In this document: positions 13,549 to 59,859 of the stretch, one piece after another
How positions within the stretch are numbered: position 1 is the stretch's first letter
Layout of the letters: each line of letters opens with the position of its first letter
NCBI RefSeq assembly: GCF_016695175.1
Contig: NZ_CP068023.1
Span: 3,177,501-3,241,500 of the forward strand
Source of the DNA: Pseudoalteromonas sp. GCY
Lineage (GTDB): Bacteria; Pseudomonadota; Gammaproteobacteria; Enterobacterales; Alteromonadaceae
Direction: 5' to 3'
Length of the DNA stretch: 64,000 nt
Position numbers and translations under genes: made by a program
The notes under the pieces: model-generated
Database searches by the model: none
The model's input: only the letters and a program-made list of their open reading frames with translations
Told to the model about the DNA's origin: nothing

Positions 13549-14160
13549 ATGGAATTTTTAAATACTGCATTTACGTTTCCCACTGTTATTTTTTCAACAC
13601 TATTACTCATAGTGTTGTTGTTCTGGTTAATTGCTTTACTCGGTTTTACTGATATCGATATCTTAGAAGGCGATATTGATATTGAAGCCGAAGGCGCAAG
13701 CTCTGGTTCTTTTTGGGAGGTCGCTTTTGGTGGCGTCCCAGTGAGTATTTCACTGAGTTTAATCATCGCGCTGGGTTGGATTATCAGTATTTATGTGCAA
13801 CAGTTTTTTGCTTATCTATTGGGCAATGGCATTTTTTACTACCTGATGGGCACGGTATTTATGCTTGCCAGCCTCATTGTTGCATTACCACTAACCGCTG
13901 TAATTGTAAGGCCATTACGACGCTTTTTCGAAAGCCAAGAAACCACTTCTAAGCAAGCGCTGGTTGGGCTCGAATGCGTTATTGCAACATCAAAAGTTAG
14001 CAACACTTTCGGTCAAGCCAGAGTATATATTCAAGGAACGGAGCAACTCATCGAAGTGCGCTCGGATGAAGATAACACTTTCACACTAGGAGACTGTGCC
14101 TTACTTATCGAACATGACACCCTTACACATAGCTACACGATTGTGGCTAAACCTTGGTAA
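13549..14160 (+). CDS. yqiJ: YqiJ-like inner-membrane protein with C-terminal OB-fold (NfeD-like) domain
   Basis: Partner protein usually encoded before a flotillin. Two to three membrane segments are visible (about 10-37, 64-90 and 98-125), with an acidic loop between the first two (DIDILEGDIDIEAEG) and a short helical joint, followed by a soluble domain from about 140 (ALVGLECVIATSKVSNTFGQARVYI) that looks like the NfeD/OB fold. Length 203 matches E. coli YqiJ (about 209), whose gene is likewise followed by yqiK. In the general NfeD-flotillin pairing the OB domain is thought to assist flotillin assembly. The start is supported by AAGGAACAGCA. Confidence 0.85.
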   Translation: MEFLNTAFTFPTVIFSTLLLIVLLFWLIALLGFTDIDILEGDIDIEAEGASSGSFWEVAFGGVPVSISLSLIIALGWIISIYVQQFFAYLLGNGIFYYLMGTVFMLASLIVALPLTAVIVRPLRRFFESQETTSKQALVGLECVIATSKVSNTFGQARVYIQGTEQLIEVRSDEDNTFTLGDCALLIEHDTLTHSYTIVAKPW

Positions 14161-14189
14161 TAGTACGGAAAATAACGGAATTTAGGAAC

Positions 14190-14214
14190 GAGTTGGCATA
14201 GCTAATACCAACTC
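14190..14214 (+). repeat. Hairpin in the yqiJ-yqiK gap
   Basis: GAGTTGG and CCAACTC, a perfect 7-bp stem with an 11-base loop, lie in the 83-bp gap between the two genes. With no T-run it could be an mRNA-processing or stability element rather than a terminator. Confidence 0.4.
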
Positions 14215-14243
14215 AAACAACATAGCGCAACGCAGGAAAAAAC

Positions 14244-16421
14244 ATGGAATTTCTAAACAACCTCGGACCGGTGCTCGCAATCGTGGGCATATCCATCGTC
14301 ATTATTTTTGCCATTCTACTTCTGATTGGAAAGTTCTACCGCAAGGTTGAACAAGGTCAGGCATTGATCATCAACAAGATGAAAAACGAGCCGGATGTCA
14401 CGACAACGGGCGGCATTGTGCTACCTGTGATCCATAAAATGGAAGTCATGGATATTTCAACTAACCGCATGGTACTAGAGCGTCGTGAAAACAGCGGCCT
14501 GATCTGTAAAGATAATATCCGTGCTGACATCGCCATTACTTTTTACATTCGCGTAAACGAAAACAAAGAAGATATCCTACGCGTTGCGAAACAAGTTGGC
14601 TGTGCCCGCGCATCTGCACCAGAAACCTTACAAGCATTATTTGAGGCAAAATTCTCCGAAGCCTTGAAAACCGTTGGTAAGCGCATGAATTTTGAGGAGC
14701 TATTTACACATCGTAATGAGTTCCGAGATTCTATTAAAGAAGTGATTGGACAAGATTTATCTGGCTATACGTTAGAAGATGTAGCAATTGATTATCTTGA
14801 ACAAACCTCGATCGACAAGTTAGATCCAAATAACATTCTTGACGCTGAAGGTATTCGCCGTATTACCGAAAAAACCTCACGCCAAAACGTAGAAACTAAC
14901 CAGCTTAAATGTGATGAAAAAGCGCAAATCGACAACCAAAACCAAGCTGCCTTTGAAAAAGCCGCAGAAGTCGAGCGCCAACGTGAAGATGCCAGCGCGA
15001 GACAACGCCGTGAAATCGAGTCGGTGCGCGCTCGCGAAGCCGCTGAAGCTGAACGTGTTAAGCATGAAGAGCGCTTAAAGGCCGAAGAAGCACGCCTCAA
15101 AGCGGACGAAGCAATTGCAATTGCAGAACACAACAAACAACGCGAAATCGATGTTGCAGAGCAAAATCGCCTTCGCTTACTCGGCATAGAAGAAGAAAAA
15201 GTCACGCGTTCTCGCCAGATTGAAATTATCGAACGTGAGCGTGAAACCGAAATACTACGTATTCAAAAGGCCAAAGCGCTAGAAGTTGAACGTAAAGAGA
15301 TTGCCGATGTTCAGCGTGAACGGGTTGCCGTTGAGAAAACCGTTGCCGAGGAACAAGAGCGCATCAAAGACGTGCAATGTATTGCTGAAGCCGAGCGTGA
15401 GAAGCAAGCGAAAATTATTCTTGCTCAAGCAGAGGCCGAAGAAGCGTTGGTTAAAGATATTGAAGCGGCTAAAGCTAAAGAGCAAGCTGCCGAATTTAAA
15501 GCCCGTGAAATGGAAAAAATGGCTGCGGCGGAGCTGCGTATTGCGAACCAAACCGCTGAGTCGAAGAAAATTCTTGCCGAAGCTGCTCAGGTTGAAGCGG
15601 CAGCGCCTGGTCTTGCAGAAGCCGATATCATTAAGGCTAAAGCCGCTGCAAGTGCGATACAGGGTGAAACAGACGCCAAAGTGCTACAGCAAAAACTAGA
15701 AGCCGAAGCACAAGGTAAACGTGATATTGGCCGCGCCGAAGCCGAAGTACAAGCAGCAATGGCAGAGGCAACCAAGAAGCAAAGTGAAGCCGAAGCGCAA
15801 GGCAAACGTGAAATTGGTTTGGCAGAAGCTGAGGTTCAATCAGCAATGGCTGAGGCAATTGAAAAACAAGGAGAAGCAGAAGCTATCAACCTTGAACGTA
15901 AGATGTCAGCAGAAGCCAAAGGTCTTACAGAGAAGCTGGAAGCACTTAATAAGATGGATAAAGACGCCCGTGAATACGAAAGCTTCACGCTACAGTTAAA
16001 CCAACAGAAAGAGCTGACGCTTGCGAGTATCGAGGCGAACAAACAAGTTTCTGCAAGTCAGGCTGAAGTATTAGGTAAAGCATTGAGCGGTGCTGATATC
16101 AACTTTATGGGCGGCGACGGCCAGTTCTTTAACCAGTTTATGAATGCCATCACAGTAGGCAAGTCAATTGACGGCTTAGTAGGCGAAAGTAAGACGGTAC
16201 AAACCGTATTTAAAGATCACCTAAACGGTGAACGTAATTTGATGGACGACCTAAAAGGGGTATTGGCTGGTGCCAATGCGTCGTCGGAAACGCTAAAAAA
16301 CATCAACATGAGTAAGTTCTTCCAACAGCTAAGCAATAGCTCAGATGCGGACAAACAGCAGCTACTCAGGTTACTTGGCGGCTCGTTAAATGGCAGTAAA
16401 CAAAGCGAACCACTAGAGTAA
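14244..16421 (+). CDS. yqiK: YqiK-type flotillin (SPFH/band 7 protein) with extended helical tail
   Basis: Inner-membrane scaffold of the flotillin family, which organises detergent-resistant membrane patches. One N-terminal membrane segment (about 8-29) is followed by the SPFH domain (about 30-210, with LICKDNIRADIAITFYIRV and EELFTHRNEFRDSIKEVI). From about 215 to 620 the protein is an Ala/Glu/Lys/Arg-rich coiled coil with flotillin-type EA repeats. The 725 residues are far more than E. coli YqiK (about 553); part of the excess is a 29-residue tandem duplication at 15699-15872. The C-terminus (NNLMDDLKGV... SSDADKQQLLRLLGG) is less repetitive. Gene order with yqiJ and the giant ATPase suggests the three act together at the membrane. 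Confidence 0.92.
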   Translation: MEFLNNLGPVLAIVGISIVIIFAILLLIGKFYRKVEQGQALIINKMKNEPDVTTTGGIVLPVIHKMEVMDISTNRMVLERRENSGLICKDNIRADIAITFYIRVNENKEDILRVAKQVGCARASAPETLQALFEAKFSEALKTVGKRMNFEELFTHRNEFRDSIKEVIGQDLSGYTLEDVAIDYLEQTSIDKLDPNNILDAEGIRRITEKTSRQNVETNQLKCDEKAQIDNQNQAAFEKAAEVERQREDASARQRREIESVRAREAAEAERVKHEERLKAEEARLKADEAIAIAEHNKQREIDVAEQNRLRLLGIEEEKVTRSRQIEIIERERETEILRIQKAKALEVERKEIADVQRERVAVEKTVAEEQERIKDVQCIAEAEREKQAKIILAQAEAEEALVKDIEAAKAKEQAAEFKAREMEKMAAAELRIANQTAESKKILAEAAQVEAAAPGLAEADIIKAKAAASAIQGETDAKVLQQKLEAEAQGKRDIGRAEAEVQAAMAEATKKQSEAEAQGKREIGLAEAEVQSAMAEAIEKQGEAEAINLERKMSAEAKGLTEKLEALNKMDKDAREYESFTLQLNQQKELTLASIEANKQVSASQAEVLGKALSGADINFMGGDGQFFNQFMNAITVGKSIDGLVGESKTVQTVFKDHLNGERNLMDDLKGVLAGANASSETLKNINMSKFFQQLSNSSDADKQQLLRLLGGSLNGSKQSEPLE
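15699..15872 (+). repeat. 87-bp tandem duplication inside the flotillin coiled coil
   Basis: Two in-frame units of 87 bp each (15699-15785 and 15786-15872) encode 29-residue repeats beginning EAEAQGKR and containing AEAEVQ, with a third copy beginning at 15873 (EAEA). DNA copies differ at many third positions, so the duplication is not recent. Confidence 0.85.
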
Positions 16422-16429
16422 TTAACCCT

Positions 16430-16454
16430 GAGGAGTCAATCTGCTTGACTCCTC
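16430..16454 (+). repeat. 9-bp hairpin between yqiK and the giant ATPase gene
   Basis: GAGGAGTCA and TGACTCCTC form a perfect stem with a 7-base loop in the 70-bp gap. It is followed by TCCCCCATTTG rather than a T-run, so partial attenuation or an mRNA processing signal is possible. Confidence 0.5.
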
Positions 16455-16491
16455 TCCCCCATTTGCGACAGCGCACATAGGAAAGCAAAGA

Positions 16492-19400
16492 ATGACGGAA
16501 GCAACGCAACAAGCGCCAGAGCGAACGCTCGAACAAGACTCTTATCAACTTATTAAACGCCGGCTTAGTAACTTTGGCGGTGAACTGAAAAGTCAGATAG
16601 ATAAACTCAACCAACAGCGTGTTGACACATTTGGCAGCACCGAGCTTAAAGTGAAAGGTCGAGCAAGAGTTCGTACTGAGCATAACTGCGTACCGCGCGA
16701 CATTGTACTGATCGGCGACAAGCTTATCTTTGCTTATAATGTGTTTATGGGGCTTAAACAAAATACCCAAGTCAGCGATGTATTCACCGTACAAAAGCTA
16801 CACCTGCAAGAAGACCATTACGAAATAGAACCTTACCCGCAAGAAACTAAATTCCTCACTGACCAACGTTTCTTACGCGACTTTGACGAACTATACACGT
16901 ATTACAAAGACACCCGTCTACAACACCTATTTGTTAAATCAAACAAGCTCTTTGCGCTATTTCAGATTGGCGAAAAGCTCTCTGATGTCCGCGTGTTTCG
17001 CTGGCAAATCGCCAAAGACGAAACCTTAGATTATATTGATAATCGAGGAGAGCGCGACCTAGGCGAAGTGGAAAACTTTGACTTTGAATGGCAAAAAACC
17101 GATCGCGCCGATCACGTCGAAGGCCGTCACCCACATATTAATGTGAACGACAAAGTGTTTATTGAAGTATCGAGTGGCAAACTCACCGTAAAAATAGAAA
17201 ACAATACCCAAAGCGGTGAAGGTATTTATCAAGAAGCCGTTGATGACGCCAGTCAATCACTCGCAGATTGCGATTTGCGTTTTGCCGAAGTTGGCGAAAT
17301 GGTGTTGTTAAAGTTACTTCCCTACCGTGAAAAACAGTGGCGTTATTTTATTTATAATTGCCGCACCCAGCAGGTATTACGCCAAGATGCGCTGGGTGGT
17401 GCCTGTGTTCAATTACCTGAGAACCAAGGGATTATTTTTCCTGGTGGCTATTATTTACAATCTGGGCAAACACGCTATTTTGACGACCAACTGGACGATT
17501 TAATTTTCCATCGCCAGATCAAATCACCCAATGGTGAAGATGTACTGTATATCTTCTACGAACCAAACGAGGGTCGTTACGCACTTTTCTCTTACAATAT
17601 TATTGAAAAAAACCTGCAAAATCCCATTTATTGTCATGGCTATGGTATTTATGACGATGGCTTAGCGCTAACCTTTAAAGCAGAGCCAGAGCCTGAGCGC
17701 GTACATCCTATTCAAATCTGGCAAAGCCCATTTTGTGGCAGCGAGTTTGCCGCACAAGCCCCTCGCGCAACCGGCTTATTTGGCCGGATCGGCAACCCGG
17801 ATTTAGTACGCGCGATTTCTGATTTATACAGTGTGTTCCAAGCCATTAACGAACAAAGCCCCACAGTCTTTCATTATGAAGATTTAATTGCCCTCACCCG
17901 CAGTATTTTAGACCGCTATCATTGGCTTGCTGAAGCGGACTTTGCAGATATCACAGCAAAACTACATGAAATTTTTGAAACCTCGGAGCAGGTACTAGAC
18001 GAATTTGAAAAGGTAAGCCAAATTGAGGCCGACGCTCGGCGCGCAGAAACCGAAATAGAGCAAGCCATGCAAGATGTGCTTCGCGAGGTGAGACCAGATA
18101 GCTTTAAAACAGCGGAGCAGTTTGTCCAGAGCTTAGAATCTCTCAAACGCTTAAAAGGCAAAGTGATCAGCCTTGAAGAAGTGAAGTATATCAATCTTGA
18201 CGCGCTATCTGCCATGCAGCAGCAGATTGATGAGCAAACCCTGAGCTTAAGCCATAAAACCGCGGAGTTTTTGCAGCAAGATAGTGCTTTGGCGCCCTAC
18301 TACGAGCAGCTAGACTCCTTAGAGCAAGCCAGAGCACAAACAGAGAGTGTCACCGAGCTTAACGGCTTTTTGGCGACCTTGGAAACCTTGAGCGCTGAAC
18401 TTGATCTGCTCAACCATACCATGCTTGATCTCGACATTGACGATAGCCGCATTCGCACTAAAATTTTGGAAGATGTCAGCGCCATTTATGGTCAAGTAAA
18501 CCGCGCCAAAGCAGCGTTAGAAATTCAGAAAAAGAGCGTGGGCAGTGTTGAAGCAAAAGCCGAATTCGCGGCTCGTTTTAAGCTTTTCAGCCAAAGTATT
18601 ACCAGCGGTCTAAGCGCTGCCAAAACCCCAGAGCAATGTGACGACCAGCTATCTCGCTTACTTATCCAATTAGAAGAGCTCGAGTCTCAATTTAGTCAGT
18701 ATGATGAGTTTTTAACGGAGATCTTGTCTAAACGTGATGACGTTTATGAAAGCTTTGAGGCGCACAAACAGCAGCTCATTGACGAAAGACAGCGCCGCGC
18801 GCTGAGTCTAGCAAACGCTGCCGAGCGTATTTTACAGGGGGTGACACGACGCTCGCAAAGTTTTAAAACCTTAGATGACATCAATAGCTACTTTGCCTCC
18901 GACCCTATGATTGGCAAGCTTCGCGATTTAACGCAAGAGCTAAAGCGCCTAAGCGATGAAGTGAAGGCGGATGATATTCAAGCCAAACTCAAGGCCTGCA
19001 AAGATCAAGCGATCCGCGCTTTGCGAGACAAGCAAGATATTTATATTGATGGTGGCAATACCGTTAAAGTCGGCAAACATGCGTTTAGTTTCAATAAACA
19101 AATCCTTGATTTAACTTTGCTGCCTCGTGGTGAACAGCTGATGTTACACCTCACTGGCACTGAGTATTTTGATACTATTCCTGACGATAAGATCAATCAA
19201 CAGCTCAATGATGCAAGCACGTACTGGGAGCAAAACCTGATCTCAGAAAACCGTCACTTGTATCGAGGCGAGTACCTTGCAGCTCAAGTATTAGCGGCTG
19301 CGGAGCAAGATGGCAACGACTTTAGTCAAGCGGATCTAGAACTTGCAGTTGATGAGGGAAGTTTACTGCCTATCGTACAAAAATTTGCAGAACCCCGATA

Positions 19401-21990
19401 TCAAGAAGGCTATGAGAAAGGTATTCATGATCAAGATGCCAGCCTGATCTTAGCTAATTTACTAAAACAAAAACGACAGCTTGAGTTACTCGTCTACCCT
19501 GCCAGCTGTCGAATTGCGGCACAGCTATTTTATACTCATCAAAGCAAGGCTGAGCTAGCTGAATTGGCGTTTCAGGCTATACAAGCAGAGCTGATGGCAA
19601 CGAAGTTAGATGACCATAGCTTTAGCCAACAGCTAAGCAAAGAATTAAGTGAAAAGATCACAGCATTTTGTCAGCAAAACTTATCGAGCTATTTAACCGA
19701 GCTACACCGCTTTTCAGGCGAGTTAAGCGCAACTTACTTAATTAAAGCCCTTGCCAAGCAAGTTAAGCCGAGACAATTTGACTTGGCTTCACCTGCAAAA
19801 CACATCAGCGAGCAGTTTATCTCGATGGCAAAGGCCAAAGGCGTTTGGCAACAACTTGAGGACTCATTAACGCATTTGACCAAACTTGAGGACAAATGCC
19901 GCCTGTTAAGCAGCTGGCTGCGCGCCTATGGCAGTAAGCAAAATGAAAGTGCTGAGACCTTGCTTGAGGCCGCTAACTGCATTTTGCTTTCCACCCAGTT
20001 AGATATCACCTACCAAGTCAAAGAAGCCGAAATAAAAACCGACATTTCAGGCTTAATGGGCCAACATCCACGTATCGAGAACCAAGTGCTACACCTAGAT
20101 TACGCAGATTTTTTTGCCCGTAGTAACGAGTATCTCACGGTTCATGTTCCGGCCTACAAACAGTACCAACAGTTAAAAGCACAAGTGCTTGAGGCACAAA
20201 AGCAGCGTTTGCAATTGGATGAGTTTAAACCCAGACCGCTAAGCTCATTTGTACGTAATCAGCTGATTGACAAAGTCTACTTCCCTATTATTGGCGATAA
20301 CTTAGCAAAACAAATAGGGGCTGCAGGAAACAATAAGCGCACCGACTTAATGGGCATGTTGCTGCTTATCTCCCCTCCGGGCTATGGTAAAACCACGTTA
20401 ATAGAGTATGTGGCTAACCGCTTAGGACTCACCTTTGTTAAGGTCAATTGTCCATCCATAGGTCACGACCAAGTCTCTTTGGATCCTGCTCAAGCTATCA
20501 ATGCGACCGCCGCAAAAGAAATTGAAAAGATCAACCAAAGCTTTGAGATGGGAAATAATGTGATGCTGTACCTTGACGATATTCAGCATACCAACCCCGA
20601 GTTTTTACAAAAGTTCATCTCTTTGTGCGACGGTTCAAGACGCATAGACGGGGTGTGGAATGGCCGTAGTAAAACCTATGATCTGAGAGGCAAAAAGTTT
20701 GCCGTTGTGATGGCAGGAAACCCATACACCGAATCCGGTGAATCTTTTAAGATCCCAGATATGCTTGCCAACCGCGCCGATATTTATAATCTCGGTGACA
20801 CCCTTAGTGGCTGCGAGCAAGAATTTGCCATGAGCTTTATTGAAAATACGCTCACTTCCAATGCAGTGCTTGCGCCACTTGCCAATCGTGGTATGGAAGA
20901 CTTGTACAAGCTAGTACGCATTGCCGACGGAGAAGACATCTCCATCAATGAATTGGAATTTAATTACTCTCAAGCGCAAGTGAATGAAATTGTCAGCGTA
21001 CTGAAAAAGCTGCTCACCATTCGCAACACCGTGCTCAAAGTAAATACCCAATATATTGCCTCTGCAGCGCAAGATGATAACTATCGAACCGAGCCACCGT
21101 TTAAGCTACAAGGCAGTTACCGTAACATGAATAAGATGGCTGAAAAGGTGGTTGCTGCCATGAATGACAGTGAACTTGAAAACCTAATTCAAGATCACTA
21201 TCGCGGTGAAGCACAAACGCTTAGCAAAGGCAGCGAAGAAAACTTACTTAAACTGGCTGAATTACGCGGTACCTTGACGGATGAAGAAGCAACACGCTGG
21301 CATGAAATCAAAGCCGAATATGCCCGTCTGCACCGCAATAGTGACGAAGGAAGCCCTGCGCAGCTAGCCGTTGAACAGCTGAGCTTTGTCAATAAATCCC
21401 TTTCGCAAATCGCCGCTAAACTCGATAAAGAGCAGCTTAGCTTTGATTACAGTGCGCTGTTGCAACAATTAGCTCAGGTGCTTAACGAGCAAGAGTTTGC
21501 CACGCAGTTAACTGAGCTACGTGAGGCCTTAACGCAGCAACCTTACGCTACACCGCTAAAGCAATTGATAGGTTCACAGCAACAAGTCGCAGAGGAAATT
21601 GCTGGACTACAAAACGCTATCAAACACACTGCGAACAACGAGCAGCTACTCGCTAACCTTAGCAAACTCAATGACTTGCTTAGCACCCAAGCCCAAATAC
21701 AACAAGCATTGGGTCAACAAGGTCAGCAGCAAAATACACTTTTTGAAAACCTGTCTGAGCGCTTAGAGGCGGCGGCACAACCGCAGATCCAAGTCGACAA
21801 TCATGTTGATGACAGCAGTGCTAAAGCACTTGAAGCCGTCACGACATTGTTGACAAATACCCTAGCAAACTCAAGCGCTGAGCAAGTCCAGCAGCAACAA
21901 CTAAAAGACATTTTACAAAAGCTTGAGGAGATTCAATCAAGACCTGTAGTTAGTAACGGTTCACCAGCGAAAAACCCGTATATGTTGTAA
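16492..21990 (+). CDS. Giant AAA-family ATPase (1832 residues) associated with flotillin
   Basis: A very large protein of unknown role; relatives are often labelled 'DNA repair ATPase' without firm proof. The first ~480 residues look beta-rich, with many aromatic/Gly turns and no signal peptide. Long helical, coiled-coil-prone stretches follow (about 490-860). A second mixed region (about 860-1240) precedes one AAA module: Walker A SPPGYGKTT at 1294-1302 (Lys1300), Walker B VMLYLDD at 1357-1363, and a sensor-1-like Asn in VVMAGNPYTESGE. The last ~350 residues are Gln/Leu/Ala-rich coiled coil ending in RPVVSNGSPAKNPYML. Only one ATPase site is evident. Being co-directional and close behind yqiJ-yqiK, it probably acts with the flotillin at the inner membrane. 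Ribosome site AGGAAAGCAAAG. Confidence 0.85.
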   Translation: MTEATQQAPERTLEQDSYQLIKRRLSNFGGELKSQIDKLNQQRVDTFGSTELKVKGRARVRTEHNCVPRDIVLIGDKLIFAYNVFMGLKQNTQVSDVFTVQKLHLQEDHYEIEPYPQETKFLTDQRFLRDFDELYTYYKDTRLQHLFVKSNKLFALFQIGEKLSDVRVFRWQIAKDETLDYIDNRGERDLGEVENFDFEWQKTDRADHVEGRHPHINVNDKVFIEVSSGKLTVKIENNTQSGEGIYQEAVDDASQSLADCDLRFAEVGEMVLLKLLPYREKQWRYFIYNCRTQQVLRQDALGGACVQLPENQGIIFPGGYYLQSGQTRYFDDQLDDLIFHRQIKSPNGEDVLYIFYEPNEGRYALFSYNIIEKNLQNPIYCHGYGIYDDGLALTFKAEPEPERVHPIQIWQSPFCGSEFAAQAPRATGLFGRIGNPDLVRAISDLYSVFQAINEQSPTVFHYEDLIALTRSILDRYHWLAEADFADITAKLHEIFETSEQVLDEFEKVSQIEADARRAETEIEQAMQDVLREVRPDSFKTAEQFVQSLESLKRLKGKVISLEEVKYINLDALSAMQQQIDEQTLSLSHKTAEFLQQDSALAPYYEQLDSLEQARAQTESVTELNGFLATLETLSAELDLLNHTMLDLDIDDSRIRTKILEDVSAIYGQVNRAKAALEIQKKSVGSVEAKAEFAARFKLFSQSITSGLSAAKTPEQCDDQLSRLLIQLEELESQFSQYDEFLTEILSKRDDVYESFEAHKQQLIDERQRRALSLANAAERILQGVTRRSQSFKTLDDINSYFASDPMIGKLRDLTQELKRLSDEVKADDIQAKLKACKDQAIRALRDKQDIYIDGGNTVKVGKHAFSFNKQILDLTLLPRGEQLMLHLTGTEYFDTIPDDKINQQLNDASTYWEQNLISENRHLYRGEYLAAQVLAAAEQDGNDFSQADLELAVDEGSLLPIVQKFAEPRYQEGYEKGIHDQDASLILANLLKQKRQLELLVYPASCRIAAQLFYTHQSKAELAELAFQAIQAELMATKLDDHSFSQQLSKELSEKITAFCQQNLSSYLTELHRFSGELSATYLIKALAKQVKPRQFDLASPAKHISEQFISMAKAKGVWQQLEDSLTHLTKLEDKCRLLSSWLRAYGSKQNESAETLLEAANCILLSTQLDITYQVKEAEIKTDISGLMGQHPRIENQVLHLDYADFFARSNEYLTVHVPAYKQYQQLKAQVLEAQKQRLQLDEFKPRPLSSFVRNQLIDKVYFPIIGDNLAKQIGAAGNNKRTDLMGMLLLISPPGYGKTTLIEYVANRLGLTFVKVNCPSIGHDQVSLDPAQAINATAAKEIEKINQSFEMGNNVMLYLDDIQHTNPEFLQKFISLCDGSRRIDGVWNGRSKTYDLRGKKFAVVMAGNPYTESGESFKIPDMLANRADIYNLGDTLSGCEQEFAMSFIENTLTSNAVLAPLANRGMEDLYKLVRIADGEDISINELEFNYSQAQVNEIVSVLKKLLTIRNTVLKVNTQYIASAAQDDNYRTEPPFKLQGSYRNMNKMAEKVVAAMNDSELENLIQDHYRGEAQTLSKGSEENLLKLAELRGTLTDEEATRWHEIKAEYARLHRNSDEGSPAQLAVEQLSFVNKSLSQIAAKLDKEQLSFDYSALLQQLAQVLNEQEFATQLTELREALTQQPYATPLKQLIGSQQQVAEEIAGLQNAIKHTANNEQLLANLSKLNDLLSTQAQIQQALGQQGQQQNTLFENLSERLEAAAQPQIQVDNHVDDSSAKALEAVTTLLTNTLANSSAEQVQQQQLKDILQKLEEIQSRPVVSNGSPAKNPYML

Positions 21991-25871: not shown

Positions 25872-26875
25872 TAAAGGTCAAATTTTACCTCATCGATTAG
25901 CTTAAGCGCTAACGGACGGTATTTACTGATCTCTGACAATGGTAGGCTGTCTTCCTTAAACTCACCCCAAGATGCCACAAGTTTCGATAACTCGACGCCA
26001 GGTTTAACCGGGTATTCCATATTCATCGACGCATACATATTTTGCGCCTTATTGTCGGTCATAAACTCAATGAGTTTCAAGGCATTTTCTGTATTTTTAG
26101 CGTGCTTGGTCAAGACAACACCAGAAACGTTGATATGTGAACCACGATCTTGTTGATTTGGGAAGTTGATATATACCGCTTCAGCCCAGGCTTTTTGTTT
26201 CTCATCTTCCATCATCTTACCGAAGTAATAGCTGTTTCCTATGGCCAAATCACACAGTCCTTCTTTTACTGCTTTGACTTGTGCACGGTCGTTACCTTGA
26301 GGCTTACGAGCTAAGTTTTTCTTCACGCCTTCAAGCCATTCTTTGGTTTTTGCTTCACCATGATGGGCAATCATAGACGCCACTAAACCAAGGTTATAGG
26401 GATGTTTACCTGAGCGCGTACAAATTTTACCGCGGTATTGTTCATCCGCTAGCGCTTCATAAGTAAGCGCATCTAACTTGCCTACACGGTCTTTTGCAGA
26501 ATATACATTGCGCACACGCTTAGTAAGCGCAACCCACTGGCCTTCAGGATCTCTGAAATTCGCTGGGATATTCTTGGTGACGGTTTCGCTGTTAATTGCT
26601 TGTGTTAGGTTTTCGTCTTCAAGTTGAATTAGCGCACTGAAGTTTGAAGTGAGTACAAGATCGGCACGGCTATGCTTGCCTTCACGCTTAACACGCTCGA
26701 TTAAGCCTTTTTTTGCAAAAACCACATTGGTCTTGATACCGGTTTGCTTGGTGAAGTCATCCAAAATAGGTTGGATCAGAAAAGGTTGTCTAAACGAGTA
26801 GATATTAACTTCCTCTGCAGCCATTGCTGGTAGGCAAGTAAGCGTTGCCAGTATAGTAACAAGTGCTTTTTTCAT
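25871..26875 (-). CDS. fbpA: Periplasmic iron(III)-binding protein
   Basis: Substrate-binding protein (transferrin-like class) that captures Fe3+ in the periplasm for FbpBC. A signal peptide is clear (MKKALVTILATLTCLPAMAAEE). The adjacent tyrosines in AIGNSYYFGKMM correspond to the iron-liganding Tyr pair of FbpA/FutA, and the N-terminal EEVNIYSFRQPFLIQPILDDF is typical. 334 residues. It is the first gene of the operon and has a Fur-like box 20-34 bp before its start codon. Confidence 0.93.
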   Translation of the reverse strand: MKKALVTILATLTCLPAMAAEEVNIYSFRQPFLIQPILDDFTKQTGIKTNVVFAKKGLIERVKREGKHSRADLVLTSNFSALIQLEDENLTQAINSETVTKNIPANFRDPEGQWVALTKRVRNVYSAKDRVGKLDALTYEALADEQYRGKICTRSGKHPYNLGLVASMIAHHGEAKTKEWLEGVKKNLARKPQGNDRAQVKAVKEGLCDLAIGNSYYFGKMMEDEKQKAWAEAVYINFPNQQDRGSHINVSGVVLTKHAKNTENALKLIEFMTDNKAQNMYASMNMEYPVKPGVELSKLVASWGEFKEDSLPLSEISKYRPLALKLIDEVKFDL

Positions 26876-26894
26876 AAAGACTCCATTAGGTAAA

Positions 26895-26909
26895 CAATAA
26901 TTATTATCA
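26895..26909 (-). promoter_or_regulatory. Fur-box candidate upstream of fbpA
   Basis: On the minus strand TGATAAT-A-ATTATTG matches the 7-1-7 Fur motif TGATAAT-N-ATTATCA at 13 of 14 symmetric positions or nearly so, differing only at its end. Its place 20 bp before the start of an iron-uptake operon supports Fur repression. Confidence 0.75.
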
Positions 26910-27003
26910 ACTAATTCTACCTGTAATTGTGCCGTTTTACACCCTGAATATTTGAAACTACGCTCAAGATAAAATTAGCGTTGTAGAAAACGGGAGAATT
27001 ACC

Positions 27004-27021
27004 TGTGAGATATATCTCACT
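27004..27021. promoter_or_regulatory. UvrY/GacA-type response-regulator site upstream of csrB
   Basis: TGTGAGATATATCTCACT contains a perfect 16-bp palindrome (27005-27020) and closely resembles the UvrY (GacA/SirA) box known upstream of E. coli csrB (TGTGAG...CTTACA). Its centre is about 165 bp upstream of the inferred csrB start, a typical distance. Confidence 0.75.
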
Positions 27022-27166
27022 TAGCTACCAGAAATTGAGTAAAGACGTGCTGAAATAACACTCAAAATTAAAGTAAGAAATTGAAAAATAAAAAGTTATT
27101 TATTATTACTAGAAAAAGATGCGAAAAAGATTGAATTTCACTGCTCCCGATTTTTTTTAGTCTGCT

Positions 27167-27172
27167 TATACT
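27167..27172 (+). promoter_or_regulatory. -10 element of the csrB-like RNA
   Basis: TATACT, placing the transcription start near 27178-27180. No good -35 sits 17 bp upstream, as expected for an activator-dependent promoter. Confidence 0.55.
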
Positions 27173-27177
27173 TAACA

Positions 27178-27812
27178 ACATCTCAGGAAGAGAGATAAAG
27201 GATACAGAGGAAACGCTCAGGGCAGGACTTGCTAATGGACAAGCACCCACTTAAAGGAATATAGGGAAAAGAGAGCGAGATTGTATGTCACATGGTGTGA
27301 TTATGTTAAAGGACAGGGATTAAAGGTTCATGATGAGCCTAAGGATTGCTTCAGGGGAGGGGCTAAACGTTGAGGGATAACGTTACTGCATTGGATATGC
27401 AGGTGGTTAAGGATGAGGAAGGAAGGTACATCGGATGTACTGGTAAAATGTGGCTTAGGAGATGCCAATTGTTGCAATTAACAGCGCAACACCTAGCTTG
27501 AAGCAACACGTTCAGGCTACCAAGTGCCAAGGTAAAACAAGGTGATGATTGGCACTGCTATTTTGGAAAGTAGCAAACAAGGACAATTAGAACAAGGGGT
27601 TGTTCTTAGCAAGTGGATGGCAATGGATAAGACAGCGGACGTGTAAAAGGAAGATGGACACAGGGCAAGATGCCTTTATTCGCAAAACGAGAACACCAAG
27701 CGATGCCATGGAAGAGGAAAGATTCAGGACGTTGAACTACTCAACTTTGCAGGATGCATTTAGAAGATTCCGTAAGCGCGACTCAGCAATGGGTCGCGCG
27801 CTTCTTATTTTG
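27178..27812 (+). ncRNA. csrB: CsrB-family regulatory RNA, unusually long
   Basis: RNA sponge that sequesters the translational regulator CsrA. About 29 GGA trinucleotides lie in ~635 nt, many as AGGA/AAGGA/CAGGA, and several sit in predicted hairpin loops: AACGTT-gagggat-AACGTT near 27367, TGCAT-tggat-ATGCA near 27387 and GTACAT-cgg-ATGTAC near 27426. There is no credible protein frame. It ends in a strong GC hairpin with a T-rich tail, and a UvrY-type palindrome lies upstream. E. coli CsrB is 369 nt with about 18-22 GGA motifs, so this RNA is much longer. A second, internal promoter dividing it in two cannot be excluded. Confidence 0.88.
27774..27812 (+). terminator. Rho-independent terminator of csrB
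   Basis: AAGCGCGACTC / GGGTCGCGCGCTT stem with a short AGCAAT loop, then CTTATTTTGTT. Confidence 0.88.
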
Positions 27813-27861
27813 TTCCTATCTATCGTGTGATATTACGCTTGTGTTGTCGAGATGTTTGTGT

Positions 27862-27884
27862 TGTCGAGATAAATCTCGACCTAC
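27862..27884. repeat. Palindromic repeat, copy 1 (GTCGAGAT family)
   Basis: The 8-bp hairpin GTCGAGATAAATCTCGAC flanked by T on the left and CTAC on the right. A 12-bp fragment of the same repeat (TTGTCGAGAT) is duplicated just to the left at 27844-27853. Identical to the copy at 27926. Confidence 0.85.
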
Positions 27885-27925
27885 CGTCATCTTGCTCACC
27901 CTACAGCGTAAACAATGCGGCTTTT

Positions 27926-27948
27926 TGTCGAGATAAATCTCGACCTAC
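27926..27948. repeat. Palindromic repeat, copy 2; supplies the stop codon of the DTW gene
   Basis: Same 23-bp unit as at 27862, preceded by a T-run. The CTA of its CTAC end is the TAG stop codon (minus strand) of the gene at 27945, so the repeat overlaps the coding region and could also act as a terminator hairpin for it. Confidence 0.85.
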
Positions 27949-28622
27949 AGTTTGCTGCGCTTACCTTTTAAGTAGGCATCTCTGAAATCGATAAAATGCG
28001 CGGTTAATTTATCTGCCGCATCCTGCTCGCCGCATTCGGCAAACAATACACACGCAACTTCTGCCGTACCGAGCTGATGTTCATGCGGCGCTACTCGAAG
28101 CTTGTAATCCGAGAGCTTTTCAGGGGCGATGGATAACACGGGTAAATTATCGAGATAGGGACTCTTTCTGAACATTTTCTTAGCTTCACGCCATGTGCCA
28201 TCCAAAAAGATAAATAGTGGTGTTTTATTTTCAGTGCGAGTCACCTTAGTAATTACCCGTTCAGGCTCCACGCCTTGCTCTGGGAAAACGACTATTGGTG
28301 TATATTGCTTGTCCGAAAGAAGCGCTAATAACGCAGCGTCAGGCTCAGTTCTGTCCCAACGAAAGGCATGATTATCTGGGATCACATCGGCAATTAAGCG
28401 TCCGGTGTTAGAGGGCTTAAAGCTTTCATTATGATACATAAGCAAACACACTGCACAGTCTGCTTTGGCCACTTCGACTTTATCGCAAATACATAGAGTC
28501 GTGGCTAATAAGCAGCATTCACAACGCGCAAGCTTTGATCCCCTTGCCTTGTATTCGCGTTGAGCCGCAGCGATTTGACGCTGTCTAAGCGCTAGTACTG
28601 AATTATTCACTCTGTTCCCCAT
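27945..28622 (-). CDS. tapT: DTW-domain tRNA-uridine aminocarboxypropyltransferase (TapT-like)
   Basis: Predicted SAM-dependent enzyme adding a 3-amino-3-carboxypropyl group to a tRNA uridine (acp3U, position 47 in E. coli). Visible marks are a Cys-rich zinc-like motif near the N-terminus (CECCLLATTLCIC), the signature LDGTWREAKKM that gives the DTW family its name, and the later block LRVAPHEHQLGTAE. The N-terminal basic helix RQRQIAAAQREYKARGSK could bind tRNA. 225 residues, close to E. coli TapT/YfiP (about 232). DTW paralogues exist, so the exact target is less certain than the family. Confidence 0.88.
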   Translation of the reverse strand: MGNRVNNSVLALRQRQIAAAQREYKARGSKLARCECCLLATTLCICDKVEVAKADCAVCLLMYHNESFKPSNTGRLIADVIPDNHAFRWDRTEPDAALLALLSDKQYTPIVVFPEQGVEPERVITKVTRTENKTPLFIFLDGTWREAKKMFRKSPYLDNLPVLSIAPEKLSDYKLRVAPHEHQLGTAEVACVLFAECGEQDAADKLTAHFIDFRDAYLKGKRSKL

Positions 28623-28747
28623 CTAAAAATGCCGGCGTATTTTAGTAAAGCGCTCGGCTGGCGTCTACGCAAACTTATGCAACATCTTTACTCATGACAT
28701 AAGCTTTTGTACTCTAAAGTTTTATTGGGTTTCATTAGGAGTAAAAA

Positions 28748-29290
28748 ATGCAAGTAAAGGACTCTGCAAGACTGAGTTACCGCCTACTCACCCCACAAGA
28801 TGCACAGCTGCTCGCCGATCTTGATAGCGACCCTGAAGTAATGAAATACATCACAGGCGGTCAGACTAACTCACTTGAAGAAGTAAAAGCCGTATATATT
28901 CCACGTTTAACCGAGTTTACCGATGAGATCAAAGGTTGGGGGCTTTGGGGCTGTTTCGAGCAGCCAAACAAGGCATTTATTGGTTGGATTTTGGTTCGCC
29001 CTGCTAACTTCTTTTCAGAACAAAGAAACGATCAGGATTTAGAACTCGGTTGGCGTTTTAAACAAGCCTCTTGGGGCAAAGGGTTTGCAACAGAGGCCGC
29101 ACAACATCTTCTTCCAGACCTAATAGCAGCAAATCCTACTTTGACGCACTTGAGCGCTATCGCTGAAGAAGAGAACCTTGGCTCCATCAATATTATGAAA
29201 AAACTTGGGATGAGTTATGTGAAAAAAGGGCTCCACAAAGATATTTTAGGAGATATGGAAGTCGTTTATTATCATAAAGTTATTAATTAA
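28748..29290 (+). CDS. GNAT-family N-acetyltransferase (RimJ/RimL-like)
   Basis: Acetyl-CoA-dependent acetyltransferase of unknown substrate. The N-terminal LSYRLLTPQDAQLLADLDSDPEVMKYI is typical of RimJ/RimL-type GNATs, and the acetyl-CoA loop appears as SWGKGFATEAAQHLL near 115-130, followed by NLGSINIMKKLGM. 180 residues is normal. It has its own ribosome site (AGGAGTAAAAA) and ends at a bidirectional terminator, so it is monocistronic. Confidence 0.9.
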   Translation: MQVKDSARLSYRLLTPQDAQLLADLDSDPEVMKYITGGQTNSLEEVKAVYIPRLTEFTDEIKGWGLWGCFEQPNKAFIGWILVRPANFFSEQRNDQDLELGWRFKQASWGKGFATEAAQHLLPDLIAANPTLTHLSAIAEEENLGSINIMKKLGMSYVKKGLHKDILGDMEVVYYHKVIN

Positions 29291-44186: not shown

Positions 44187-44373
44187 TTGTTCCCTAGCTC
44201 GTAGGACAGCTGATTAAGTCCCTGAGCCGATAAATTTCTTTCAGGATAGCAGTTTGTTTACTATTGAGCATGCTCGGCATGTACCGAGAAGCCTACGGTA
44301 GGCTGTTGCTCTCCGCCTTGAACCTCAGGGTTCAAGGGCTGACATCGGCATCCGCGAAGCCGGGGAACAATCT
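44187..44373 (+). ncRNA. ssrS: 6S RNA
   Basis: RNA that mimics an open promoter and holds the sigma-70 RNA polymerase holoenzyme in stationary phase. Blocks shared with E. coli 6S appear in order: GTCCCTGAGCCGAT, GAGCATGCTCGG, CCGAGAAGCCT, CCTTGAAC with GGTTCAAGGG, then GGCATC. The ends pair (TTGTTCCC with GGGGAACAA) to form the closing stem, giving about 187 nt, the usual length. Unlike in enterics it is not beside fau, which lies 35 kb away at 8786. Confidence 0.93.
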
Positions 44374-59150: not shown

Positions 59151-59226
59151 TGGTGCCCAGAGGCGGAATCGAACCACCGACACGAGGATTTTCAATCCTC
59201 TGCTCTACCGACTGAGCTATCTGGGC
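59151..59226 (-). tRNA. tRNA-Phe (GAA), copy 1
   Basis: 76-nt minus-strand gene with acceptor GCCCAGA/TCTGGGC, D-stem, TΨC arm GGTTCGATTCC and anticodon GAA (loop TTGAAAA). CCA is encoded. Confidence 0.98.
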
Positions 59227-59245
59227 AAATCTTTTCAAATATCTA

Positions 59246-59304
59246 AATCCTCAAAAGGATTTTCAATACAATTTCAAATAGCTCTACTGAATAGAGCTAT
59301 TTAG
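59246..59304 (-). repeat. Decayed tRNA-Phe-like sequence in the first Phe-Thr spacer
   Basis: Resembles the complement of tRNA-Phe: AATCCTC...GGATTTTCAATAC...GCTCTACTGAATAGAGCTATTTAGA. Too degenerate to fold as a tRNA; probably a fossil. Confidence 0.55.
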
Positions 59305-59331
59305 AAAACACAGGCTTTCGCCTAAATAAAG

Positions 59332-59407
<76 letters not shown>

Positions 59408-59419
59408 ACACTAAATTAG

Positions 59420-59495
59420 TGGTGCCCAGAGGCGGAATCGAACCACCGACACGAGGATTTTCAATCCTCTGCTCTACCGACTGAGCTATCTGGGC
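59420..59495 (-). tRNA. tRNA-Phe (GAA), copy 2
   Basis: Identical in sequence to the copy at 59151, 13 bp from the Thr gene. Confidence 0.98.
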
Positions 59496-59515
59496 AAATC
59501 TTTTTTAGTATCTGA

Positions 59516-59617
59516 ATCCTCAAAGGGATCTTCAATACAACTCCAAGCAGCTCTACTAATTGAACTATCTGGAAATCTTTTTGTTATCTAAAAAACCCAA
59601 TCAACTGAGATATCTAG
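59516..59617 (-). repeat. Decayed tRNA remnants in the second Phe-Thr spacer
   Basis: GCTCTACTAATTGAACTATC at 59550-59569 is close to the tRNA-Phe 5' part (complement GCTCTACCGACTGAGCTATC). A further fragment near 59597 (TCAACTGAGATATC) repeats the pattern. The spacer is homologous to 59227-59331, showing that the Phe-Thr unit was duplicated. Confidence 0.55.
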
Positions 59618-59644
59618 AAAACACAGGCTGACGCCTAAATTAAA

Positions 59645-59720
<76 letters not shown>

Positions 59721-59783
59721 ACACTAATTCGTGTACCATGCAGTTTCTGCATGCACCACATTGCTAATGCAATGATTTTAATC

Positions 59784-59859
59784 TGGTGCCCAGAGGCGGA
59801 ATCGAACCACCGACACGAGGATTTTCAATCCTCTGCTCTACCGACTGAGCTATCTGGGC
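59784..59859 (-). tRNA. tRNA-Phe (GAA), copy 3
   Basis: Third identical Phe gene and the first in transcription order; the promoter lies just upstream at 59869-59897. Confidence 0.98.

Follow-up and report, generated by a model that had tools for sequence, protein, structure and literature searches.

Operons that combine a CesT/Tir-like protein, PspA, a band-7/flotillin protein, an AAA+ ATPase and a YqiJ/YuaF protein were described by Ravi et al. (2024; PMC11237479, drawn on here in part, as are all articles cited by PMC number), along with shortened operons that lack the CesT/Tir-PspA dyad and are suggested to act with PspA encoded elsewhere; the same work predicts an ESCRT-like (endosomal sorting complex required for transport) role for PspA with AAA+ ATPases. 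Here we analyze a 64,000-nt stretch of Pseudoalteromonas sp. GCY DNA (GCF_016695175.1, contig NZ_CP068023.1; hereafter “the window”, whose positions serve as coordinates), in which genes for a YqiJ-like membrane protein, a YqiK-type flotillin and a giant AAA ATPase of the DUF3686 family follow one another. These are the same three proteins as in the operons of Ravi et al., and by its predicted products the locus is the short form of that operon type: the three genes are colinear, and the dyad that would make it a full form (a DUF2170 gene followed by pspA) lies outside the operon. Escherichia coli carries a homologous yqiJ-yqiK pair in the same order but, in strain K-12, no ATPase gene after it, and the parts used here of “Evolution of prokaryotic SPFH proteins” (PMC2636767), which treats YqiJ-YqiK operons, do not contain the word “ATPase”.

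An initial annotation made from the letters alone had considered that such an ATPase seemed under-described. As the operon type was published in 2024, the module is no new discovery; what we add is the co-occurrence of its ATPase with DUF2170, the unsplit flotillin-ATPase pair and a mapping onto the bac biofilm operon of Pseudomonas aeruginosa, and the sections of PMC11237479 used here hold no co-occurrence counts, gap hairpin, DUF3686 name or bac link. A literature search covering few subscription journals returned no paper that names DUF3686/PF12458 or joins “DNA repair ATPase” to flotillin; Ravi et al. was the sole match to as many as four of the five terms for the module. The reading we favor, with a probability of about 0.5 on sequence evidence, is that the ATPase is anchored by flotillin and remodels PspA-type membrane assemblies, most likely for envelope maintenance; its link to PspA is supported by the data below, and the mechanical remodeling step is what we infer from them.

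Conservation of the three-gene unit

The features of the locus, all on the plus strand, are as follows.

13549..14160, plus strand: YqiJ/NfeD-like membrane protein, 203 residues (profile comparison, hydrophobicity)
14190..14214, plus strand: hairpin in the YqiJ-flotillin gap (folding z -2.0)
14244..16421, plus strand: YqiK-type flotillin, 725 residues (Band_7, homology to E. coli YqiK)
16430..16454, plus strand: hairpin in the flotillin-ATPase gap, 10-bp perfect stem with no T run after it (folding z -3.6)
16492..21990, plus strand: giant AAA ATPase, 1832 residues, DUF3686 family (Pfam profile)
16582..17922, plus strand: DUF3686 domain, residues 31-477 (Pfam E 1e-188)
18286..18534, plus strand: DUF7902, residues 599-681, in a charged, helix-prone middle region (E 8.1e-21)
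20359..20736, plus strand: AAA core, residues 1290-1415 (AAA_5, E 1.6e-10)
20371..20397 and from 20560, plus strand: Walker A and Walker B within the AAA core (motif positions)
21292..21987, plus strand: variable Q-rich C-terminal tail, residues 1601-1832, ending in NPYML (alignment conservation)

The open reading frames (ORFs) thus bear out the annotated layout of three co-directional genes, with gaps of 83 bp (YqiJ-like to flotillin) and 70 bp (flotillin to ATPase) and with products of 725 and 1832 residues. To place the module among relatives, 88 loci were examined: the window, seven further loci and 80 from named genomes. These 80 are the best out of 502 relatives and all carry gammaproteobacterial or proteobacterial titles, which weights the counts toward near relatives. 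In 82 loci all three genes are present, co-directional and ordered as in the window; in three others (L054, L081, L082) flotillin homology lies upstream and the contig ends before any YqiJ, and two (L058, L084) have no flotillin and almost no upstream sequence. Overall, flotillin lies ahead of the ATPase in 85 of the 86 loci that have upstream sequence. The ATPase also appears in 12 records of a plasmid collection, and the 11 examined (H3, an apparent duplicate of H2, being left aside) span Pseudomonadota, Actinomycetota, Deinococcota and Bacteroidota; flotillin lies upstream in 11/11 and a YqiJ-like ORF in 10/11, being absent in Streptomyces globosus. The finding that would have counted against the annotated module, an ATPase mostly lacking yqiJ/yqiK neighbors, was therefore not obtained.

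Within the genus, DUF3686 was found in 47 of 108 genomes and a flotillin match (E < 1e-60) in the identical 47, so the module is optional and its flotillin-ATPase pair is never split; more broadly, DUF3686 occurred in 8 of 398 genomes drawn from the phylum and in none of 14 control genomes. Trees built from the 67 loci in which all three ORFs are clean share 48 of 64 splits between ATPase and flotillin (mean 0.155 and maximum 2 over 200 relabellings), and the three genes act as a single transmitted unit. The operon itself, on the 4.18 Mb contig of a 5.47 Mb genome in two contigs, is flanked by argR on one side and by a convergent cluster of DyP peroxidase and ABC-transporter genes on the other. 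A sister genome (G443) with 92-95% identity across most of these flanks lacks the module and retains remnants of 398 bp (from the ATPase) and 165 bp (ATPase end and beyond), from which the module appears to have been lost by deletion; in G503 and G482, argR adjoins the peroxidase with no module in between.

Downstream of the ATPase and on the same strand, a PLD-like gene is found in 19/88 loci and a rhomboid-cluster gene in 20/88, mostly at Pseudomonas-type loci; PLD is mentioned in PMC11237479, and rhomboid is absent from the parts of it used here.

Each gap had been annotated with its own hairpin, and both are present in the window. Among relatives, the hairpin is conserved only in the flotillin-ATPase gap. 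Spacers of 40-240 nt were folded after removal of near-identical ones and compared with 80 sampled same-strand controls, some of which are necessarily true transcript ends: the flotillin-ATPase gap gave a median z of -2.91 (39/54 spacers below -2), the YqiJ-flotillin gap -0.36 (10/39) and the controls -0.98 (29/80), so that the former differs from both the latter gap (p 1e-8) and the controls (p 4e-6), and the YqiJ-flotillin gap does not differ from the controls (p 0.98). Perfect stems of at least 7 bp occur in 34/67 and 10/67 loci for the flotillin-ATPase and YqiJ-flotillin gaps, respectively (spacers outside 20-400 nt being scored as stemless and not folded), and stem sequences are unrelated between genera. 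The YqiJ-flotillin stem recurs in the close relatives L016, L017 and L039 and is not conserved as a class further out. In the window no T run stands behind the flotillin-ATPase stem, so that this hairpin more probably affects the stability or processing of the mRNA than terminates transcription. The suggestion of tuned stoichiometry thus gains indirect support for this gap alone, and none for the YqiJ-flotillin gap, whose hairpin is not conserved. A sigma-70 scan gave 15 candidates against a shuffle mean of 13.0, with none inside either gap.

Co-occurrence with DUF2170 and PspA, and the bac operon

Two families, DUF2170 and PspA_IM30, recur upstream of the module. Of the 79 loci that extend 5.5 kb or more upstream, 40 carry both families on the strand of the module and no farther than 9 kb upstream of it, and 2 more carry one of them. 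In the genome of the window, the single DUF2170 gene (C2:3080490-3080891) has a pspA gene next to it, and this dyad (C2:3080490-3081599) sits 109 kb from the operon, grouped with genes for DUF350 and spermine synthase, a distance that explains why the initial annotation missed the partner. On plasmid pQBR103, one run holds yjfI, pspA, a rhomboid gene, DUF2491, DUF350 and DUF1190, followed by a glutathionylspermidine-synthase family gene, a YqiJ-like gene, flotillin and the ATPase, and so resembles a fusion of the two gene groups that are separate in the window genome.

The association extends to genomes in which the genes are apart. In the phylum draw, DUF2170 was found in 8/8 DUF3686 genomes vs. 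50/398 overall (hypergeometric 3.7e-8, shared descent uncorrected), and in five of the eight it does not lie within 10 kb on the same contig, although one of these, G140, has a contig too short to tell; leaving out the three linked genomes, the figures are 5/5 vs. 47/395 (p 2e-5, likewise uncorrected for descent). Within the genus, DUF2170 is present in 47/47 ATPase genomes vs. 99/108 overall (p 0.0044, again uncorrected), within 10 kb in 18 of them and not so in 29. A draw of 398 genomes from the family of G190, which we take to be Pseudomonadaceae from the 98% identity between the G615 ATPase and a P. aeruginosa-labelled one, gave 66/67 vs. 141/398. For these comparisons, the paired phylum draws and the paired family draws were taken as the same genomes from their equal size and their handles. 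DUF2170 (YjfI) is the CesT/Tir-like partner of the YjfJ-type PspA, and the ATPase occurs almost only in genomes that hold it.

The best-studied relative may be the bac operon. In P. aeruginosa, bacA-F form one operon by reverse-transcription PCR; BacA belongs to DUF2170 and its crystal structure resembles those of secretion chaperones, BacB is PspA-like, and in a bacA mutant the proteins BacB to BacF rise 6.1- to 13.5-fold, the fifth (PA14_16190, bacE) 8.9-fold (PMC10948618). The flotillin PaFlo3 is BacD (PMC13086221). The word “ATPase” occurs 0 times in the main texts of these two papers. There is a P. aeruginosa-labelled DUF3686 protein (P0156, in a cluster of 3222 members), and genome G615, whose ATPase is the 98% match to it noted above, shows the order DUF2170, PspA, YqiJ-like, flotillin, ATPase and PLD-like, six genes as in bacA-F. 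The third and fourth products there have 213 and 688 residues, in agreement with the masses of 23 and 76 kDa reported for the bac proteins (PMC2587700), whereas the first was reported at 16 kDa, below expectation from a 206-residue ORF, which a later start may explain. By this gene order, bacE very probably encodes the DUF3686 ATPase, with the PLD-like protein as the product of bacF, and we regard the bac operon as very probably the complete form of the operon type in the window, where the dyad and the PLD gene are missing from the site. If bacE is the ATPase, then it would already have been shown in P. aeruginosa that the ATPase is expressed together with flotillin and PspA. A conserved context is described as absent for the PaFlo proteins (PMC13086221); for this flotillin, our neighborhood counts differ from that statement.

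A sigma-54 promoter, as reported for bac, was sought in the argR-yqiJ spacer, where no candidate reached at least 8 of 12 positions, and a crude scan of 250 bases upstream and 400 inside DUF2170 starts found the strict pattern at 0/34 ORFs vs. 14/340 control windows, so that these scans lend such a promoter no support.

Architecture of the three proteins

The ATPase covers the PF12458 profile completely (positions 1-448 of 448; 627.8 bits vs. a cut-off of 25). It has a single AAA domain, in which Walker A (SPPGYGKTT) spans residues 1294-1302 and Walker B (VMLYLDD) begins at 1357, at the annotated positions. Nearly every column is invariant across 45 sequences in the SPPGYGKTT, LYLDD, GNP and LANR segments, the last two of which we take to be sensor 1 and the arginine finger; with that reading, the protein carries the predicted Walker A, Walker B, sensor and arginine set of AAA+ remodelers. 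Conservation, computed per 40-residue block over 52 selected sequences including that of the window, is 0.74-0.90 between residues 1241 and 1440, which places the AAA core with the best-conserved parts of the protein, and 0.84 at 1521-1560, and drops to 0.06-0.17 beyond residue 1640. The N-terminus was annotated as beta-rich, which its composition fits (29% V/I/F/Y/W/T in the first 480 residues vs. 17-24% in the other four blocks) without proving the fold; no solved structure related to the N-domain profile scored better than E 0.044. Lengths range from 1583 to 2042 residues among 82 open frames of more than 1,500 residues. In 18 of these 82, the window included (21973-21987), the last five residues are NPYML; all 18 are Pseudoalteromonas, so this is no feature of the whole family, although its retention after a hardly conserved tail suggests a possible C-terminal binding motif.

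Among the best 80 of 502 relatives, the closest ATPases (98-99% identity) are those of Pseudoalteromonas strain S2755, P. flavipulchra and strain HM-SA03. The frame is split into 971 and 879 residues in Pseudoalteromonas sp. HM-SA03 (L039, from 10001, two frames), and is reported as 991 residues in genome G469, either of which may reflect sequencing error or decay.

Flotillin has an N-terminal membrane stretch (residues 2-36), an SPFH/Band_7 domain (34-182; E 2.7e-7) and a long charged, A/E-rich region after it. Its homology to E. coli YqiK (28% identity over 454 aligned positions, E 3e-44; profile E 1.8e-35) extends across the SPFH and helical parts, by which it is assigned to the YqiK type; no solved structure matched its profile at E 0.001. 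Membrane prediction gave this one stretch in flotillin, three in the YqiJ-like protein and none in the ATPase. The YqiJ-like protein has hydrophobic stretches at residues 3-41, 55-91 and 93-124 and then a soluble C-terminal part. Its annotation as NfeD/OB-type is likely from the profile match to E. coli YqiJ (93% probability, E 2.6e-7), and short of proof: the protein alone has zero Pfam matches at E 0.1, and among 35 aligned members, with the cut-off relaxed to E 1, YqiJ_N matched 10 (best E 6.9e-5) and YqiJ_OB 3 (best E 0.0055), so that an OB fold of the C-terminal part is weakly supported by the family. Solved structures gave nothing better than E 1.1 for this profile.

Proposed function and surroundings of the operon

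How might such a module work? Flotillin and its YqiJ partner would oligomerize into a scaffold at the inner membrane, on which the ATPase, having no membrane stretch of its own, could dock by means of the DUF3686 domain at its N-terminus and its helical arms. The AAA ring would then spend ATP to dismantle or remodel PspA-type (ESCRT-III-like) membrane assemblies, much as Vps4 acts on ESCRT-III, and the CesT/Tir-like protein would keep these assemblies in a workable state; the flotillin-ATPase hairpin may hold the ATPase below scaffold level through mRNA ends rather than termination. The proposed logic, a polymer of the PspA family and an AAA ATPase at a membrane, is shared with ESCRT-III and Vps4 as discussed in PMC11237479, although the DUF3686 ATPase is far larger, has other accessory domains and showed no MIT domain in a Pfam scan. 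It is tempting to speculate, and we hold this only tentatively from sequence comparison, that it is the missing bacterial counterpart of Vps4, a dedicated, flotillin-anchored motor acting on PspA polymers of the YjfJ/BacB type, which the DUF2170 protein would chaperone. If so, microdomain scaffolds and ESCRT-III-like repair would be one machine, with the bac operon as its best-studied, unrecognized example. The identity of the module and its partner is well supported; a Vps4-like action is what we infer. How bacteria regulate PspA-type assemblies without an associated AAA ATPase has been called unknown (PMC11237479), and a locked flotillin-ATPase pair tied to one PspA class is a concrete candidate regulator. 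DUF2170 is common in genomes without the ATPase, which makes the dependence one-way, of the ATPase on DUF2170; together with the unsplit pair and the bac mapping, this makes the remodeling idea testable.

Several observations weigh against remodeling of PspA, that wide occurrence of DUF2170 among them. The co-occurrence p-values ignore shared descent; the unlinked test within the genus is weak (29/29, p 0.025) because DUF2170 is near-ubiquitous there; and in the family draw the two genes are mostly linked as one operon, with G529 as the only ATPase genome of 67 without a DUF2170 match. L063, a Methyloprofundus metagenome-assembled genome, has the ATPase without flotillin in 10 kb upstream and is the sole clear exception among the 88 loci. 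Similarity to the remodelers p97, NVL and Rix7 is restricted to a stretch near Walker A, and no internal propeller repeats emerged from a self-comparison of the ATPase profile (next best E 0.13), although the published description of the operon's ATPase includes beta-propeller repeats (PMC11237479). In P. aeruginosa, deletion of the flotillin lowered biofilm by only ~20%, and these flotillins are deemed dispensable in the laboratory (PMC13086221), which speaks against a strong role.

A different task for the same membrane machinery, which we find possible and on balance doubtful, would be quality control of membrane proteins, with flotillin-YqiJ collecting damaged or unfolded proteins, the ATPase unfolding or extracting them as in HflKC-FtsH, and PspA serving as a parallel stress branch. 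The reported flotillin-mediated stabilization of unfolded proteins in Staphylococcus aureus (PMC11222466) and the linkage of SPFH proteins to FtsH, likewise a scaffold joined to an ATP-dependent machine (PMC2636767), are in line with this, as are the rhomboid-protease genes downstream of the ATPase and in the pQBR103 run. However, FtsH is a membrane protease, whereas the Pfam scan found no protease domain in the DUF3686 ATPase; most loci have no protease partner, and the steadiest outside partner is DUF2170/PspA. The database label, under which the ATPase would serve DNA repair or chromosome handling, seems highly improbable: the Pfam entry PF12458 reads “ATPase involved in DNA repair”, “DNA repair ATPase” is the name given to many relatives and weak RuvB-like matches lie near Walker A, but domain scans found no DNA-binding family in the three proteins, a membrane scaffold accompanies the ATPase almost throughout, and our literature search yielded nothing that ties the label to flotillin or uses the family names. 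A membrane-microdomain ATPase thus fits better than DNA repair, as the initial annotation had argued; of the envelope or chromosomal complexes it proposed as targets, the membrane side is strengthened by the DUF2170/PspA partners and the chromosomal side found no support. Very unlikely, too, is a mobile module that serves in phage defense or another conflict, in favor of which one could cite the patchy distribution across phylum and genus, the plasmid records and the apparent deletion in the sister genome; no PADLOC family scored better than E 0.013 (the three proteins, not the neighboring genes, were scanned), none of 50,697 phage records matched the module, and the module is tied to a stress system. 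Through the bac link, the existing results on mutants and proteomes would become available for a protein family whose “DNA repair” label is misleading.

Elsewhere in the window, ~88 bp at 27861-27951 match four sites ~64 bp apart in the sister genome G443, and the copy number of this intergenic repeat seems to vary between the two; Tandem Repeats Finder reported no array within 26800-29000 of the window. A 6S RNA lies at 44188-44370 (Rfam RF00013, 116.9 bits), and five tRNA genes on the minus strand at 59151-59859, in the order Phe-Thr-Phe-Thr-Phe, resemble a duplicated tRNA array.

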